From a virus, in IMG/VR virus record IMGVR_UViG_3300040801_003241, positions 1-21,879 of that record: a DNA stretch of 21,879 bases. One strand, given 5' to 3'. The number at the start of each line of letters is the position of its first letter. Position 1 is the first letter of the stretch. The position numbers and the translations under genes are program-made. Below are positions 3,745 to 17,932 of this stretch, piece after piece. Under the pieces are notes generated by a model. That model saw nothing but the letters and a program-made list of their open reading frames with translations. It had not been told where the DNA came from and did no database searches.

Positions 3745-4665
3745 TCACTCCGCGAACAGGACGGGCTGCTTGACCCGGAACGGTTTGCGCCAATGGTCGT
3801 CGCCCATGCGTTTGCCGATCTGGTCGAAGGCGAAGGCGTTGAGCGCCCATCTCGGTTTATAGTCTGTCGCCAGCTCTTCGGGCGTGAGCCCGTAGTAGCG
3901 GATCAACCCTTCGATGTAGGCGCGCGCCTCCTGTGGGTAGGTCGAGAAATGGCGCAGGAAGTCCTTGGCGCGAGGCGACCGGGCGGAGATGTCGATCTTC
4001 TGGAGGAGCTCGGGCAATTGGATAAGCCCGTTCGCCGCCGCCTGCACCCATGAGGAGCTGTCCACGGAATACCACGGGTAGCGATACATCAGGGGCAGTG
4101 CCGTCAAGCCGAAGCCGTGGACCTTCGTCTTCGCATACCCGTCCTTGTCGGTGAGGGCGTATTCCCACAGCTCGTCCAGCCACGGGCCTAGCTTCTGGTT
4201 CGGGACGGGGACCATGCCGCCGATGGTGATGTATTCGTAGTTGTCGGCGTAGTATTTCGCCAGCTCCATAGGCTCCCCGAAGTGGAAGCACGGGAGGACC
4301 GGACGCGGGAGATTGCGGCGTTCGAGATCCTGCTGGTTGCGAAACGTCGCCTCATGGTCGCCGATGGCGTCCAGCACCGATGCCATAATAACGATGTCTT
4401 GGTTCTCGGCGATGAACTCGGCATACTCCCCTATGTCGATCTCGTGGCCGAGCGTGAAGGCCGAGAAGGCGCCGCTGTCGAGGAAGACCTTGACCCCGTC
4501 CTCGCGGATCTTGCGGGTGAACTGGCCCTTCTTGATGTAGTGGTAGCTTTCCAGGTGGTGGGTCACCTGATCCCGTAGCATCTGCGCATTCGGCGGGGCT
4601 GCTCGGTAGGCGTTGGACGTCCTGCCGAAGTTGGAAGTATACAGGCCGGCGATATACACGTGCAC
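3745..4665 (-). CDS. dpdA: DpdA-like DNA guanine transglycosylase (7-deazaguanine insertion into DNA)
   Basis: 306 residues starting at GTG. It belongs to the Tgt superfamily: LDSGAFSAF (D63) matches the DSGGFQ active-site loop of tRNA-guanine transglycosylase, ASVLDAIGD supplies D99, YITIGGM (residues 145-151) matches the conserved Gly-Gly loop, HGFG follows at 183-186, and YSVDSSSW (D202) stands at the place of the catalytic aspartate nucleophile. Unlike Tgt it has only one cysteine (C126), so the CxCxxC zinc site is absent. DpdA enzymes replace guanine in duplex DNA with preQ0 or a derivative. Directly upstream are queC, folE, queD and queE, which make that base. Downstream are the clamp-like protein and the polymerase, so modification and replication are co-expressed. 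Confidence 0.9.
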   Translation of the reverse strand: MHVYIAGLYTSNFGRTSNAYRAAPPNAQMLRDQVTHHLESYHYIKKGQFTRKIREDGVKVFLDSGAFSAFTLGHEIDIGEYAEFIAENQDIVIMASVLDAIGDHEATFRNQQDLERRNLPRPVLPCFHFGEPMELAKYYADNYEYITIGGMVPVPNQKLGPWLDELWEYALTDKDGYAKTKVHGFGLTALPLMYRYPWYSVDSSSWVQAAANGLIQLPELLQKIDISARSPRAKDFLRHFSTYPQEARAYIEGLIRYYGLTPEELATDYKPRWALNAFAFDQIGKRMGDDHWRKPFRVKQPVLFAE

Positions 4666-4682
4666 GGGATCAGGTTCCTGGG

Positions 4683-5471
4683 TCAGGCGACGAGAGCTGC
4701 GATCCGGGGCAGGAAGCGTTCGACCTGCCGAGGGCCGTAGTTGTCCGTGTCGGGCAGTGCCATGAGGCCTTCGAAGTTGGCGCGCAGGACCAGCGGGTCC
4801 GGGACGCCGGCTTCCTCGAACCCCTTCGCCCGCAGGAGCGTCGCGTGGTCGTGGCCCTTCGGCGGGTATTGCCCGTCATAGGAGGTGTGCGAGAACGCGA
4901 GCGCCTCATAGCACCCGTCGAGATCGAGCGCGAGGTTGACCGTGGCCGCCTTCGTCATATGCATGAGGGGCGTATGAATCTTGAGCGGGCCGGGCGCGCC
5001 GTCCTCGCCGGTGAACGTCCCGAGGTTGATTGCGGTCTCCAGCGCCTCGATGAAGACCGACCGGCAGTCTGGGTATCCGCCAAAGTCCTCCTCACAGACC
5101 CCAGTCACGAGATTCAACGCCCCTATGCAGTAGGCGCGGTTCGCCGCGAGCGTCAGGAAGAGCTGGTTGCGCATCGGGACGAAGGTCTTCTCCAGTCCGC
5201 CCGGGAGCGAGTGGTGGTCAGCGTATTGTTCGAGCTCGTGATCCGTTGAAACGAGCGGCGACGTCCCTTTGAGGATCGGACCCACGTCAACGATCTCGTG
5301 CACGATCCCGAGGTCGCCGGCGATCTTCTTCGCCGCCTCGATCTCAGCGGAGTGGCGCTGGTTGTAGTTGAACGTGACCGCGGCGACTTCATCGAAGACG
5401 CGCAAGGCGTAGAACAGGCAGGTGGTGGAATCCTGCCCTCCTGAAAACACGACAAGGGCTTTGCGGGACAT
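4683..5471 (-). CDS. queC: QueC-like 7-cyano-7-deazaguanine (preQ0) synthase with altered zinc site
   Basis: 262 residues, an ATP-dependent amidoligase/nitrile synthase converting 7-carboxy-7-deazaguanine (CDG) to preQ0 through an amide intermediate. The PP-loop SGGQDSTT (residues 10-17) binds ATP; FNYNQRH (34-40) and TGVCEEDFGGYPDCR (123-137) are family segments. The C-terminal zinc knuckle is degenerate: in the usual pattern CYxG...CGxCxxCxxR the four cysteines are replaced by S197, K205, D208 and T211, while the framing residues Y198, G200, G206, R214 and F218 remain. The ribosome binding site TAGGAG overlaps the folE stop, followed by ACCACCATG. The gene lies between folE and dpdA. Family assignment is firm; retention of the full two-step reaction is uncertain. 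Confidence 0.92.
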   Translation of the reverse strand: MSRKALVVFSGGQDSTTCLFYALRVFDEVAAVTFNYNQRHSAEIEAAKKIAGDLGIVHEIVDVGPILKGTSPLVSTDHELEQYADHHSLPGGLEKTFVPMRNQLFLTLAANRAYCIGALNLVTGVCEEDFGGYPDCRSVFIEALETAINLGTFTGEDGAPGPLKIHTPLMHMTKAATVNLALDLDGCYEALAFSHTSYDGQYPPKGHDHATLLRAKGFEEAGVPDPLVLRANFEGLMALPDTDNYGPRQVERFLPRIAALVA

Positions 5472-5480
5472 GGTGGTCTC

Positions 5481-6062
5481 CTATGCTGCAAGTTTCATGA
5501 ATTCCTCGCGAGCGGCGAGGTCGTCCCGGAAGACTCCGTGTAGGGCGCACGTCACGGTATGGTGCCCCTGCTGGCAAATCCCCCGGCTCTCCATGCACAT
5601 GTGCCGCGCACGGATAATGACGCCGACGCCGCGCGGAGCGAGGTGCTCCCACAGGGCGTCCGCGATCTGCTGCGTCATTCGCTCCTGCACTTGCAGGCGG
5701 CGCGCATACATATCGACCACTCGCGACAGCTTCGAGAGGCCGACCACGCGCCCCTGTGGGATATAGGCGACCGAGGCCGTCCCGAAGATGTCGGCAAGGT
5801 GGTGCTCGCATTTCGAGTAGACGGGGATGTCCCGGACCAGCACCATCTGGTCATAGCGTTCCCCTCCGTCTTCGAAGGTCTTGAGGACCGAGGCAGGGTC
5901 CTGCCCATACCCCGAGGTCCAGTGATCCCACGCCTTGGCAACCCTCGCCGGGGTCTCGCGCAGACCCTCACGCAGACCTGAGGAGTGGTTTTGATGTTCG
6001 AGCTGAAACAGCAGCTCGTTGATCTTGCTTGCGATGATCTCGCGGCGACGTATGCGATCCAT
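5481..6062 (-). CDS. folE: GTP cyclohydrolase I
   Basis: 193 residues. It converts GTP to dihydroneopterin triphosphate, the first step toward preQ0. The zinc-binding CEHH motif (C85, H88) and the later RHMCMESRG (C156) are present, as are GLSKLSRVVDMYARRLQ (108-124) and the C-terminal LHGVFRD. The open frame extends upstream to 6326, but that part reads through queD; the ATG at 6062 gives a family-length protein and shares one base with the queD stop (TGATG), showing translational coupling. In a phage next to queD, queE, queC and dpdA it supplies 7-deazaguanine synthesis rather than folate. No key residue is missing. Confidence 0.96.
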   Translation of the reverse strand: MDRIRRREIIASKINELLFQLEHQNHSSGLREGLRETPARVAKAWDHWTSGYGQDPASVLKTFEDGGERYDQMVLVRDIPVYSKCEHHLADIFGTASVAYIPQGRVVGLSKLSRVVDMYARRLQVQERMTQQIADALWEHLAPRGVGVIIRARHMCMESRGICQQGHHTVTCALHGVFRDDLAAREEFMKLAA

Positions 6063-6583
6063 CAGCGGGGTCCTTTCAGCAGGGTTGGGCGCGGCGGGGG
6101 CTCGTTCCCCGGATCGGCCTTGATCTTGATGGTCTGCGGGCGGAAGTAGGTCGCTGAGTTGGCCCCGTGTTCCCTGACCGTGACGTGGTGCATCCGGACG
6201 CGCGGGGCATACCCGTTGTCCTTGAGCCAGATCTCGGCCGCCTCGAAAATAAGGTGGGCGAAGGCCTCGCAGCCAAGGGCCGGCAGGACGACAACGTCTG
6301 CGACGCCCATACCCGCAAGCGAGCACAGGAGGTCCTTCTCGGGGTCGTCCTCAGCGACCAGGAGCTTGTGGTCGAAGGCGTCTTCCAGCATTCCCTTCAA
6401 GGACTTGAGGGAGCCGAAGTCGACCACCCAGTTGCGAGCGTCCAGCTCGTCCGCCTCGAATTCAAGGTGGATCGAGAGGGCGTAGCCGTGGATGTAGCGA
6501 CAATGGCTGTCCGCGCGCCATTGGCGAAACGCCGCCGAGAGTCCAATCTCGTGGCCGTAGGTCTTCGAAGAACGATAAGGCAT
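6062..6583 (-). CDS. queD: QueD-like 6-carboxytetrahydropterin synthase, variant zinc site
   Basis: 173 residues. QueD converts dihydroneopterin triphosphate to 6-carboxy-tetrahydropterin, step two of preQ0 synthesis. The catalytic cysteine is kept in CRYIHGY (C28), and FDHK (around residue 90) and VREHG near the C-terminus match the catalytic Asp/His and substrate-binding Glu regions. Two of the three usual zinc histidines are replaced: the AAH histidine by Phe (SAAF, F19) and the second His of HGH by Tyr (HGY, Y34); H32 remains, and H11 and H27 are possible substitutes. The segment FRQWRADSHCRYIHGYAL recalls a divergent QueD branch I associate with phages and marine alphaproteobacteria. It shares single bases with queE upstream and folE downstream (TGATG at both junctions). 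Confidence 0.9.
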   Translation of the reverse strand: MPYRSSKTYGHEIGLSAAFRQWRADSHCRYIHGYALSIHLEFEADELDARNWVVDFGSLKSLKGMLEDAFDHKLLVAEDDPEKDLLCSLAGMGVADVVVLPALGCEAFAHLIFEAAEIWLKDNGYAPRVRMHHVTVREHGANSATYFRPQTIKIKADPGNEPPPRPTLLKGPR

Positions 6584-7317
6584 CAGGGAAGCTCCGCATA
6601 CTTGTGCATCTGGAGGCAGAGGCGACGCCGACCGCGGTCGAGCATCAATGCCGACTTGACCGCCTGCGCCATATTCTGCTGGTTGCTGTAAAAGTCCTTC
6701 TCGTCCGCAGGTTGGACGAAGATATCGCCCCGGAACGCCGCTGGCGGGCGGGCGACGCGCTCGTGTTTCGGCACGGGGTGGTCAAGGGCGTGAATGGGGA
6801 GGCCGTCTTCGTCCACGTCGCCTGCCCGCACAACGTATTTGAAGGCGGAGGCGAGCTCGCCATATTCCTCGCGAAGCTTGTGGGTCTTCGGGGAGACAAC
6901 GATGGAGACAAAGCCCTCGCCCACAAGGCCGCGGATCTTGTCGACCGCTTGGATCGGAAGCATCCCGTTGGTTTCGACTTGCGAGTGCATCCCGAGGACG
7001 CGCAGCAGCTCCTCCATGAGCTGGGACAGGTTCTGGCGGAAGGGCTCGCCACCCGTGATCACGGCGAGACTTACGCCCGGGACGCGACGCATGGCTACCT
7101 CGTCCACGATCTGCTTGACGGTCAGGGCTCCGAGACCATTCTGCGTGTATTCGGTATCGCAGAGCGGGCACTGCAGGTTGCAGTCGAGCAGGCGGATGAA
7201 GACCGCAGGGCATCCTGCGAAAGGGCCTTCGCCTTGGATCGTGGGGAAGATCGAGTGGACGTCTAGCGTGCGCCCATCAGACTGCACGGGCGGCCTTGGC
7301 CGCTGTTGGTTTTTCAT
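6583..7317 (-). CDS. queE: QueE-like radical SAM 7-carboxy-7-deazaguanine synthase
   Basis: 244 residues. QueE contracts the pterin ring to form CDG, the step that creates the 7-deazaguanine skeleton. The N-terminal family signature SIFPTIQGEGPFAG (22-35) is followed by the radical SAM [4Fe-4S] motif CNLQCPLC (C46, C50, C53; CX3CX2C) and the SAM-binding GGEP (89-92). VETNG (about 115-119) and VSPK are also family-like. GGAGGA lies seven bases before the ATG. It is the first enzyme gene of the cassette, about 100 bases after a small conserved gene that heads the operon. All cluster ligands are present, so it should be active. Confidence 0.93.
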   Translation of the reverse strand: MKNQQRPRPPVQSDGRTLDVHSIFPTIQGEGPFAGCPAVFIRLLDCNLQCPLCDTEYTQNGLGALTVKQIVDEVAMRRVPGVSLAVITGGEPFRQNLSQLMEELLRVLGMHSQVETNGMLPIQAVDKIRGLVGEGFVSIVVSPKTHKLREEYGELASAFKYVVRAGDVDEDGLPIHALDHPVPKHERVARPPAAFRGDIFVQPADEKDFYSNQQNMAQAVKSALMLDRGRRRLCLQMHKYAELP

Positions 7318-14586: not shown

Positions 14587-14787
14587 ATGACAAGGTTAAG
14601 CGACGTCACGCGGGAGCTCTGCCGCGAGAAGAACGTCACGCCTGCGCAGCTGGCACAGATAACGGGTAACACGAAGCAATGGGCCAAGCTGTACCTCGCT
14701 GGCAAGATCAAGGTCCCCGCCGCCGATACGGTCCAAGCGATCTATGAGCATTTGACCGGCGCGCCCCTTGTGGGCAGGGGGGAATAG
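14587..14787 (+). CDS. Small HTH-like DNA-binding protein, putative regulator
   Basis: 66 residues from the ATG at 14587, with GAGGA seven bases upstream. The longer open frame to 14167 shadows the minus-strand gene. The sequence MTRLSDVTRELCREKN, VTPAQLAQITGNTKQWAKLY and a following helix reads as helix-turn-helix: 'LAQITGNTKQWAKLYLAG' is similar to the second and third helices of Cro/YdaS-like proteins. It is the first gene after an inverted-repeat divergent promoter and two bases before the primase-helicase. Autoregulation and control of both blocks is a reasonable inference. It could instead be a replication accessory protein. Confidence 0.72.
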   Translation: MTRLSDVTRELCREKNVTPAQLAQITGNTKQWAKLYLAGKIKVPAADTVQAIYEHLTGAPLVGRGE

Positions 14788-14789
14788 AC

Positions 14790-17141
14790 ATGGCGAACCC
14801 GAGACTCAGCCAAGTATCTCGCCTGCCCCAGGAGCTACGGGAGCGGAAGCAGTGGGCGATCTCGACCCTGCTTCCTCATCCGGTCACGGGGAAGCCCGAT
14901 AAGGCCCCGCGCCACCCACAGACGGGCCGCCTGCTCGACCTGACCAATCCTGAGATGTTTTCGACGTTCGATGAATGCATCAACTCGCCCCATGCGAACG
15001 CCATCGGATTCATCCTGACCGCGGACGACCCTTACTGCATCGTAGATCTCGACCGTCCGGCGAACCTCACGCCGCAGGACGCCAAGGCGCAGGAAAACGC
15101 CTACAACCATCTCGACAGCTACAGCGAATTCTCGCAGTCCGGGCAGGGCGTCCATATCATCGTCCGCGCGAAGATCGGCGGCGGGCGTCGGCGCGGTCCC
15201 ATCGAAGTTTACGACCAAGAACGCTATATGATCTGCACGGGCAACGTCTTCCGGGACAGTCCTATCGTGGAGCGGCAGGCCCTGATCGAGCAGCTGGTGC
15301 TGGAGATGATGCCCAGCGCCTCGAACCTCGGGGACCTGCCGACCTCGGAGCCGGAGACGCTCGGGGATGACGAGATCATCGCCAAGGCCGCCGCAGCGGC
15401 GAACGGCGATAAGTGGAAGCGCCTGTTCGAGGAAGGGCCCCGCCCGGGTGATGACCATTCCCAGCTCGACGCCTCGCTTGCCCAGCTCATTGCCTTCTAC
15501 ACGCTCAACCACGATCAGGCGCTGCGCCTCTTCCAACGCTCGAAGCTATGGCGACCAAACTCGAAGGGCAAGAACCCCGAGCACTACACCCAGTATTATC
15601 TGCTGGAGCGGACGTTCGGGCGCGCCTTCCGGGCCGAATTGAGACGCCGGAACGAGAAGAAGGCGGACCTAGAGGTCGGTCGCCTCGCGCAGCTGAAGGC
15701 GATGGTGACCCGCGAGATCGCCGAGCTACAGACCCAGGTAGCGCCGCCCATCGGGTCGGAAGCCTCCTTTGCCCCGCCTTTGGGACAAAGTGCTTCGAAC
15801 ACCTTATCCTTTCCGCCCGGGATCGTGGGAATGGTCGCGGACTTCATCTATAAGGCGGCCCCGCGCCCCGTCAGGGAGATCGCCCTCGCCGGCGCGCTCA
15901 CCTTCGTTTCGGGCATCGTGGGGCGGCAATTCAATATCTCGGGAACGGGCCTGAACCTCTACATCGTGATGCTGGCCGAGACCGGACGAGGCAAGGAAGC
16001 CGCCGCCTCGGGCATCGACGCCCTGATGGCCGCGCTCCGCCCCAACATGCCGATCATCGACGCCTACCGCGGACCGGGGCATATCGCATCGGGGCAGGCC
16101 CTGATCCGGACCTTGGACGAGCACCCGTCCCAGTTCTCGCTGCTGTCCGAATTCGGCCACACCTTGCAGGCGATCACGCACCCGCGCGCCAACGCCGCGG
16201 ACGTCCGGCTCCGACAGGCCCTGCTCGATCTCTTCTCGAAGTCAGGCAAGCACCAACTCCTCCAGTCGTCCGCCTACGCCGACAAGGAGAAGAACACCAA
16301 GAGCGTGCTCGCCCCGTGCTTCGCCTTCCTCGGGGATACGACACCGGAAGCCTATTATGCGGCATTCGGGTCCAGCATCGTCGCCGAGGGCCTCCTGCCC
16401 CGTTTCATCACCATCAGCTATGACGGGCCACGGGTCGAGCGCAACCCCTTCGCCAATGGCGAGCCCGATGCCGAGCTGATTGGCTGGATGCAGAACCTCG
16501 TCAGCGCCGTCGCCCAGATGTACCACAACGGTACGTTCATGGACGCCCGGGTCGATCCTGGGGCACTGTCGCTGCTGGACGCCTTCGACCGTGAGTGCGA
16601 CGCCCGCATCAACGACCGCGCGCAGGACGCCTTTGTCGAGGTCTGGAACCGCGCGCACCTCAAGGCCCTGCGGCTCGCGGCGCTAATCGCTGTGGGCTGT
16701 AATTGGCACGACCCTATCGTCTCCCCCGACCACGCGCGATGGGCCATCGACCTCATTCGGGCGGAGATCACGAACATCGTCCGCAAGACCGAGGAAGGCG
16801 AGACCGGGCAGGGCGAGGTCAAGCAGCTGCCGACCGTGATTAAGGTCGCCCGGGCCTACTACGAGACGCCCAAGGCGAAGCGGGTCAAGACCTATAACGT
16901 CGCGGAGCAGATGGCTGATTATATCCCATACCACTACCTTCGCAAGCGACTGCGGATGCATAAGGAGTTCACAGGGGACCGGCGTGGGCTGGAGTCTTCA
17001 ATCAAGGCGGCGATACAAACCGCGGTCGACCTCGGTCAGCTCCAGCAGCTGACGCCCGATCAGGTCGCTGCCATCCCGGGATCGCGCAAGGATACGAAAC
17101 TGTATGTGCTTGGTGCGGAATTCGGTAACGGCGTCTATTGA
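14790..17141 (+). CDS. Primase-helicase: prim-pol-like N-terminus with DUF3987-type ATPase
   Basis: 783 residues. The N-terminal 170 residues look like a bifunctional primase-polymerase domain: IVDLDRP (D86, D88), SQSGQGVHIIV (115-125, catalytic His) and IEVYDQERY (138-146). After a linker, residues 340-700 resemble the DUF3987 ATPase: LAETGRGKE (395-403) is a Walker A-like loop with Glu after the Lys, as I recall for this family, and SLLSEFGHTL provides the acidic Walker B-like residue. The C-terminal part is helical and may bind DNA. It should unwind and prime at the origin. The AT-rich iteron region begins at its stop codon, supporting an initiation role. GGGGGGA lies upstream of the ATG. 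Confidence 0.88.
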   Translation: MANPRLSQVSRLPQELRERKQWAISTLLPHPVTGKPDKAPRHPQTGRLLDLTNPEMFSTFDECINSPHANAIGFILTADDPYCIVDLDRPANLTPQDAKAQENAYNHLDSYSEFSQSGQGVHIIVRAKIGGGRRRGPIEVYDQERYMICTGNVFRDSPIVERQALIEQLVLEMMPSASNLGDLPTSEPETLGDDEIIAKAAAAANGDKWKRLFEEGPRPGDDHSQLDASLAQLIAFYTLNHDQALRLFQRSKLWRPNSKGKNPEHYTQYYLLERTFGRAFRAELRRRNEKKADLEVGRLAQLKAMVTREIAELQTQVAPPIGSEASFAPPLGQSASNTLSFPPGIVGMVADFIYKAAPRPVREIALAGALTFVSGIVGRQFNISGTGLNLYIVMLAETGRGKEAAASGIDALMAALRPNMPIIDAYRGPGHIASGQALIRTLDEHPSQFSLLSEFGHTLQAITHPRANAADVRLRQALLDLFSKSGKHQLLQSSAYADKEKNTKSVLAPCFAFLGDTTPEAYYAAFGSSIVAEGLLPRFITISYDGPRVERNPFANGEPDAELIGWMQNLVSAVAQMYHNGTFMDARVDPGALSLLDAFDRECDARINDRAQDAFVEVWNRAHLKALRLAALIAVGCNWHDPIVSPDHARWAIDLIRAEITNIVRKTEEGETGQGEVKQLPTVIKVARAYYETPKAKRVKTYNVAEQMADYIPYHYLRKRLRMHKEFTGDRRGLESSIKAAIQTAVDLGQLQQLTPDQVAAIPGSRKDTKLYVLGAEFGNGVY

Positions 17142-17428
17142 GTTGGATAAGCTGGAATAGATGGAATGGCCCGTCTATCTTTATAACCCCTTGAAATCGT
17201 TAAATAAACCAGCGAGATGGAAGATGGAATAAAATCTGGGGGAAAGAGAGAAAAAGACAGTATTAGTATTATGAAACTCATTCACGTGTTATATAAGCCT
17301 TTTGATCGTATATATTATTCTATCTATTCCATCTATTCCATCTTATTAAATTTCAATGGGTTAGGGACGTGTTTAGATGGAATAAAAGATGGAATTGGAA
17401 TAATGTGCGAAGTATGCGGGCTGGAATG
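17142..17428. repeat. AT-rich iteron region, candidate replication origin
   Basis: No convincing gene lies between 17142 and 17494. The stretch is strikingly AT-rich compared with the GC-rich genes on either side and carries many copies of a 9-mer near GATGGAATA. On the plus strand: GCTGGAATA (17151), GATGGAATG (17160), GATGGAATA (17223, directly after a partial GATGGAA at 17216), GATGGAATA (17376), GATGGAATT (17388) and GCTGGAATG (17420). On the opposite strand there are three tandem copies at 17316-17342. A-T-rich blocks stand between them. Repeated initiator sites plus an easily melted region beside a primase-helicase are typical of origins; the function itself is inferred. Confidence 0.68.
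17316..17342 (-). repeat. Three tandem 9-bp iterons
   Basis: TATTCTATC (17316), TATTCCATC (17325) and TATTCCATC (17334) are head-to-tail. On the minus strand each reads GATGGAATA, with one mismatch (GATAGAATA) in the first. They face the opposite way from the plus-strand copies on both sides. Confidence 0.85.
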
Positions 17429-17494
17429 CGACTAAATGGAGAATAGACCGATGTGGAAGAATCTTTCGGTTCGGTTATACGACAGGGGATCGGG

Positions 17495-17932
17495 ATGGGC
17501 GGCCTGAGTAGCAAGCGGAAGGGAGCGAACGGAGAGCGGGAAGCGGCAAAGCTCCTCGTGGAGTGGATCGCTCCGGTCTACCAGTCTCTGCAACTGGACC
17601 CGCCGACGCTTGAGCGCAACCTCATGCAGTCGAGGATGGGCGGCTTCGACCTTGTGGGCCTAGAGTGGCTCGCGCTCGAAGTCAAGCGGCAGGAGAACGT
17701 GTCGCTGCCTGCATGGTGGAGGCAGACCCTCCGGCAAGCGAACACCGAGCAGGTCCCATTCCTGCTATGGCGGCAGAACCGGACGCCGTGGCGGGCTCGG
17801 GTGCGGATCAGCTGCGCGCATGGGCGTGGGGAGCGGTGGGCCCTCGATGTGCTGGACGTCGATCTCGATGCCGACCGGGCAAGGGACTGGTTGCAGCGGG
17901 AGGCCTACTGGCGGCTCGTCCATGGGGGTTGA
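17495..17932 (+). CDS. Hjc/VRR-like PD-(D/E)XK nuclease, resolvase-like
   Basis: 145 residues from the ATG at 17495, which has AGGGGA seven bases upstream; the frame is also open from GTG 17453. The pattern KGANGEREAAK (E14), GGFDLVG (D52) and LALEVKRQE (E62, K64) is the active site of small PD-(D/E)XK enzymes such as archaeal-type Holliday junction resolvases and related phage nucleases. The following LPAWWRQTLRQA and VPFLLWRQN fit the helix and strand after the ExK motif. A role in resolving junctions or branched replication intermediates is likely from the position next to the candidate origin. An 18-codon frame (17451-17507, MWKNLSVRLY...) overlaps the start and might couple translation. 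Confidence 0.8.
   Translation: MGGLSSKRKGANGEREAAKLLVEWIAPVYQSLQLDPPTLERNLMQSRMGGFDLVGLEWLALEVKRQENVSLPAWWRQTLRQANTEQVPFLLWRQNRTPWRARVRISCAHGRGERWALDVLDVDLDADRARDWLQREAYWRLVHGG

Follow-up and report, generated by a model that had tools for sequence, protein, structure and literature searches.

A putative phage replication origin behind a primase-helicase gene, with iteron words that differ among relatives

Introduction

What is the role of an AT-rich, apparently gene-free island directly behind a phage primase-helicase gene, and which protein would read the short repeats that it carries? The window (the whole stretch of viral DNA analysed here, 21,879 nt, a virus record in IMG/VR) is, judging by its gene content, a fragment of a 7-deazaguanine (Queuovirinae-like) siphophage. 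Its leftward genes encode PolA (811-2832), a clamp-like processivity factor, a queuine tRNA-ribosyltransferase-like (DpdA-like) protein, QueC, FolE, QueD and QueE, as well as a helicase, a Cas4-type exonuclease, RNase H, a DUF669 single-strand binding protein and Sak4; the genes from the DpdA-like protein to QueE are consecutive (3745-7317, minus strand) and make up a full 7-deazaguanine DNA-modification set. Rightward, the order is a 66-aa helix-turn-helix (HTH) protein, the primase-helicase, the island and a RusA-like/PDDEXK_15 nuclease (Table 1), and much of the gene order of the window is shared with Pseudomonas phage Baskent_P4_1. Our search of the literature accessible to searching returned no described origin for 7-deazaguanine-type siphophages. 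A preliminary description of the window had read the island as a likely replication origin, a reading that now gains comparative support from the islands of relatives; we consider it likely that the island is an initiator-bound phage replication origin for which the 14790 primase-helicase serves as its own initiator.

Table 1. Features of the candidate origin region and its neighbours (window coordinates)
Feature	Coordinates	Strand	Basis or remark
Small Cro/C1-type HTH protein, 66 aa, companion gene	14587..14787	+	
Primase-helicase, candidate initiator: AEP primase + helix bundle + MCM-like AAA+ (DUF3987) + predicted C-terminal winged helix	14790..17141	+	
Predicted C-terminal winged-helix domain, residues ~673-775, candidate iteron reader	16806..17118	+	
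Putative replication origin island, noncoding, AT-rich	17142..17494		Repeats, composition, position kept in relatives
Iterons 1-2, GCTGGAATA and GATGGAATG, abutting	17151..17168	+	
Left box copy, TATAACCCCTTGAAATC	17182..17198	+	14.5 bits; 0/400 shuffles reach the second-best score
Iterons 3-4, GATGGAAGA and GATGGAATA, two-base overlap	17216..17231	+	Starts 17216, 17223
AT-rich core between left and right iterons, candidate unwinding element	17232..17315		Composition
Iterons 5-7, three inverted tandem copies, period 9	17316..17342	-	
Right box copy, inverted, CCTAACCCATTGAAATT	17349..17365	-	18.0 bits, best match in the window; 0/400 shuffles
Iterons 8-9, GATGGAATA and GATGGAATT, starts 12 bp apart	17376..17396	+	
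Weak tenth site, GCTGGAAT	17420..17427	+	8-mer count, offset 278
RusA-like/PDDEXK_15 nuclease	17453..17932	+	Open from GTG 17453

An AT-rich island between two rightward genes

The island starts directly after the primase-helicase stop codon (17141) and extends to the nuclease gene, which probably begins at ATG 17495. GC content is 0.36 at 17101-17400 versus 0.63 for the window, and 17176-17475 is the lowest-GC 300-bp segment of the window (0.35; next lowest, 0.54). The preliminary description of an AT-rich island of ~300 bases without a credible gene, preceded by a primase-helicase and followed by a resolvase-like nuclease, is thus borne out: the GC minimum of the window lies here, the 72-aa open reading frame within the island (17217-17435) matched no PHROG family, and the nuclease is of the RusA-like/PDDEXK_15 kind. 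An Rfam comparison gave one sub-threshold match to a microRNA family, which we judged to be chance.

Two genes that stand ~350 bp apart on one strand need at least a promoter or a ribosome site in between, and the HTH companion is repressor-like; on these grounds, the island might be a regulatory region, with a promoter for a rightward operon headed by the nuclease and with operators to which a phage repressor or activator binds. Against this, a scan for sigma-70-like promoters and intrinsic terminators returned nothing in the island, and two further observations, on the position of the array in relatives and on its likely reader, are taken up below.

Iterons in the island

The interval 17151-17396 holds nine GATGGAATA-like sites, four of them exact and five with one mismatch, spread over both strands, with plus-strand starts at 17151, 17160, 17216, 17223, 17376 and 17388 and minus-strand starts at 17316, 17325 and 17334. 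Across the window, GATGGAATA occurs at 13 sites with at most one mismatch, as against a shuffle mean of 2.66 and 0/100 shuffles reaching 13, and nine of the 13 fall within this interval. Both repeat claims of the preliminary description, about nine 9-mer copies in both orientations and three tandem copies among them, hold up, the number of copies being far above chance and the first of the tandem copies carrying one mismatch. The pair formed by iterons 8 and 9 begins 41 bp past the start of the last inverted copy. When 8-mers were counted instead, the best had 10 sites over the 320 bp that follow the primase stop, a count matched by none of 60 dinucleotide shuffles of the island and none of 262 other 320-bp windows. 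None of the iterons falls within the upstream coding sequence, unlike in the lambdoid origin, where they are inside the O-type initiator gene. We make no claim of helical phasing for the spacings (R 0.57 at 10.5 bp), as that value stems mostly from a single 44-bp cluster.

A similarity search of phages with the island DNA gave weak, chance-level matches only, and an exact 18-mer search of viral contigs returned 49 matches, none with a detected copy of this primase; some of them are dense one-strand arrays with the look of intragenic repeats. Dense arrays of GATGGAATA on one strand (24-29 copies) were seen in three unrelated viral contigs (L035, L038 and L041); these are probably repeats in a gene (Asp-Gly-Ile).

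Equivalent islands in related phages

Annotated phages with the same primase retain a noncoding gap after it, with other repeats in the gap: GGGGGATA is the repeat word in Baskent_P4_1, VPv64 and Bhz54, TAGGGAAA in Vibrio phage 033B and GTTGTATA in Kharn. Conservation of the repeats, put forward earlier as a check, had an unexpected outcome: even the closest relative found (L142; primase ~53% identical) lacks the exact 9-mer, its word being GGGGGTA, but island, position and spacing are present there with that other word. Dozens of related phages have the same repeat layout with differently spelled words. In Stenotrophomonas phage Bhz54, a perfect 77-bp tandem duplication lies within the island (L061:6464-6617).

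For a word-independent view, 154 loci, non-identical over the 300 bp up to the primase stop and totalling 1.40 Mb, were searched for a tandem with period 8-10 and inverted copies on both sides. This search gave 46 clusters as against 3.3 in all from shuffles, although some of the compared loci are near-duplicates and the cluster counts are therefore not fully independent. Of these clusters, 22 fall in the 400 bp past the primase stop (~4% of bases; ~2 expected), 11 within 0.4-2.5 kb and 13 elsewhere. A count-based search agrees: among the 36 loci whose both-strand clusters were strongest, 24 have them in the post-primase gap and 29 within 2.6 kb. In four loci (L060, L091, L103 and L096), inserted genes have shifted the array 1-2 kb downstream; the array is therefore not tied to one gene start, which argues against operators of a nuclease operon. 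For about half of the relatives, no iteron island was detected downstream of the primase. Septimatrevirus Ab26 (L057) carries the same primase family with no iteron array detected in its short gap, and may have its origin at another site.

Where it is clearest, the layout runs from plus copies through an inverted tandem (period near 9) to further copies 41-47 bp on. For loci whose arrays are clear, 24/34 tandem steps have a period of 9; the next downstream site lies 41-47 bp from the start of the last tandem copy in 12/20 loci, and the downstream copies are often paired, with the second site 11-12 bp later. Successive spacings are 9, 9, 41 and 12 in the window, 9, 8, 43 and 12 in 033B, 9, 7, 44 and 12 in Baskent_P4_1, 9, 9, 44 and 12 in Paracoccus R3, and 9, 9, 45 and 12 in L091, i.e., five different words at near-equal spacing. 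In one clade (L139, L225 and L227), the downstream pair is equally spaced but opposite in direction.

This regularity bears on a further alternative, namely, a stem-loop origin of the pRN1/BIP-1 kind, in which inverted arms, and not the repeats as such, would form the recognised structure. The island does contain long inverted repeats (21 nt, 95% complementary), single-strand DNA folding gives z = -2.25, and pRN1, whose genes are in the same order, has an origin that is conserved in fold and not in sequence (PMC4234260). A hairpin, however, needs neither extra same-sense copies downstream nor fixed 9/12/44-bp spacings; the fold is mildly better than that of shuffles, and the predicted pairing covers part of the array only. 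As the words also track a DNA-binding domain (see below), we regard a stem-loop origin as very improbable.

An inverted 17-nt box flanking the core

Certain short words are common to islands with different iterons; AGTCATTG, for instance, is present in 9/39 islands versus 0.2 expected. Such shared words led to the identification of a 17-nt box with the consensus gcTAAGTcaTTGATATc, and this conserved box (TAAGTcaTTGA) recurs in islands whose iterons differ. When a box profile trained without the window was run over the whole window, its two best matches proved to be an inverted pair, both within the island and flanking the AT-rich core. With each locus left out in turn, an inverted box pair was found in 16/54 loci versus 0/270 shuffles.

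AT-rich DNA breeds repeats, and one could suppose that the island is non-functional or else some other cis site, for packaging or partition. The repeat counts, which shuffles and other windows failed to reach, and the conservation of layout, box and position across phages weigh against this; moreover, no partition gene was recognised among the window proteins searched, and the terminase genes of Baskent_P4_1 are several kilobases off. We consider such an explanation extremely improbable.

Architecture of the primase-helicase

The structure model of the primase-helicase has a mean pLDDT of 90 (model rows cover metagenome loci, the four rows from annotated phage records having been left out). 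Its N-terminal AEP primase and helix bundle resemble NrS-1 (Z ~19, but with a 10-14 Å rmsd over two mobile domains), and among solved structures the best sequence match of the N-terminal primase part is 7ola, which we take to be SaPI5 Rep. Residues 343-670 correspond to DUF3987 (Pfam) and model as an AAA+ domain closest to MCM (Z 17.8, 3.6 Å over 269 residues); DUF3987 fused to AEP has been predicted to act as a helicase (PMC5862659). The C-terminal domain, modelled alone, is similar to a wide range of winged helices (best Z 8.6, 2.4 Å over 82 residues), those of MCM and ORC among them near Z 7; the models thus support a predicted winged-helix fold but do not single out a specific relative.

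Candidate readers of the iteron word

Two proteins come into question as initiators, the primase-helicase and the small HTH protein encoded before it. Distances between iteron words were compared with distances between proteins over 40 loci, the main word set being hand-curated. The best correlate of word distance was the C-terminal 90 residues of the primase (r 0.45), which kept a correlation given the rest of the primase (r 0.29, p 0.0005); across 29 non-redundant loci, the corresponding value was 0.20 (p 0.0017), as against 0.01 for the rest given the C terminus. A sliding scan, for which no region was singled out beforehand, peaked at residues 665-744. With automatically chosen words and 37 non-redundant loci, the C terminus given the rest gave 0.22 (p 0.001) and the rest given the C terminus 0.01; the full redundant set of 56 yielded small residuals for all parts, the HTH protein included. 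These effects are modest, and residual phylogeny is not fully removable from them. The joint variation of the word and the C-terminal part of the primase-helicase suggests this protein as the reader, and iteron binding is, on the basis of this covariation, a candidate function of the C-terminal domain. The same tracking of the primase C terminus, rather than of the HTH protein, speaks against control by a repressor or activator, and we consider a regulatory region, as an explanation of the island, quite improbable.

The island might still be an origin whose iterons are read by the HTH protein (14587-14787), which would recruit the primase-helicase as lambda O recruits P. A small HTH-type gene stands directly upstream of the primase in 111/154 loci, HTH divergence correlates with the word when taken alone (r 0.28), and the recognition-helix segment given the N-part of the primase retains r 0.12 (p 0.026) in the non-redundant set. 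Given the whole primase, however, the HTH protein leaves no significant residual (r ~0.04-0.05, p 0.20; 0.04, p 0.24 with automatic words and 37 non-redundant loci). There is also a natural swap: L113 and L130 share the word GTATAATA with C termini that are 83% identical, whereas their small HTH proteins are 36% identical. In three further loci (L140:3787-3963, L105:3779-3970 and L110:3649-3954), the small gene encodes a ribbon-helix-helix-like protein in place of an HTH protein, as judged by eye from sequence, and yet the island persists. Covariation thus favours the 14790 primase-helicase, with its predicted C-terminal winged helix, over the 14587 HTH protein as the candidate initiator; we deem recognition by the latter unlikely and see in it a likely autoregulator or accessory factor. 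In L113 (1678-2175), the HTH protein is followed in the same open reading frame by a GIY-YIG nuclease-like stretch, again judged by eye.

A model for initiation

In our preferred reading, the primase-helicase would bind the GATGGAATA iterons, most likely via its C-terminal winged helix, and would assemble as hexamers on the two opposed iteron groups; these hexamers would then melt the AT-rich core, and the protein would prime synthesis for the PolA-type polymerase, clamp and single-strand binding protein of the phage itself. The inverted 17-nt box would serve as a second binding site, for a component of unchanging specificity, which might be a host factor or a further surface of the primase-helicase. 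GC skew, put forward earlier as a check on the origin, lends it no support in three complete relatives: the island is not a turning point of the cumulative skew in Baskent_P4_1 or Kharn, and in Paracoccus R3 it merely lies near the minimum.

More tentatively, with somewhat less than even confidence, we propose that this large siphophage family has one origin layout (fixed spacing plus inverted box) within which word and winged helix change together, giving rise to mutually non-interfering replicons, and that its natural pairs are enough for a recognition code. The layout offers a means of locating origins in hundreds of environmental phages whatever their word; a candidate initiator is put forward for DUF3987, a domain of unknown function whose fold is MCM-like; and change in initiator-origin specificity becomes testable with natural pairs and swaps.

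Comparison with known systems

The island differs from a DnaA-dependent origin in that it holds no DnaA boxes (TTATNCACA); two one-mismatch matches lie elsewhere in the window, where 3.4 are expected by chance. NrS-1 PrimPol has N-terminal AEP and helix-bundle domains that match those found here in sequence and fold, but its helicase part is described as SF3, and it has two copies of an 8-nt template site, mid-genome (PMC7102993), in place of an iteron array.

Similar in gene order are pRN1 and the Bordetella phages BIP-1/BPP-1, with a small DNA-binding protein gene, an AEP-helicase-winged-helix gene and a downstream origin region, the origin sequence of pRN1 being, as here, not conserved (PMC4234260). 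The pRN1 origin is reported to be a large stem-loop with no iterons, and its authors proposed this gene order with a stem-loop origin for the Bordetella phages as well (PMC4234260); here, iterons are present and the DNA fold reaches the modest z value given above. The BIP-1 stretch that we compared gave no convincing sequence match to this primase-helicase. In the alpha protein of P4, a single polypeptide unites primase and helicase with a winged helix at the C terminus, which binds origin repeats (PMC4234260); our model predicts such a combination of domains here as well. Its primase is of the Toprim type, whereas the present one is of the AEP type, as its matches to NrS-1 and 7ola indicate.

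SaPI origins have two iteron groups around an AT-rich stretch, and so does the island. Several short iterons directly 3' of an initiator-helicase gene are common to the SaPI (SaPI5/SaPIbov1 Rep) and SCCmec Cch2 systems and to the island, as are an AEP primase, an AAA+ helicase and a C-terminal winged helix (here from predicted structure) to the SaPI type and the present protein. Both SaPI Rep and Cch2 recognise iterons located just 3' of their own genes, by way of the C-terminal domain; in the case of Cch2, binding by this domain in isolation has been demonstrated (PMC7581432). The SaPI helicase part is of the D5/DUF927 kind and the present one is DUF3987 and MCM-like; because of this difference, we do not file the island as a SaPI-type member. 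It differs further in belonging to a lytic-type siphophage, in its second conserved inverted box, and in a word that changes among members of one family at constant spacing. Ultimately, the best reading, by analogy, is that the island would work like the origins of staphylococcal SaPIs and phage P4.
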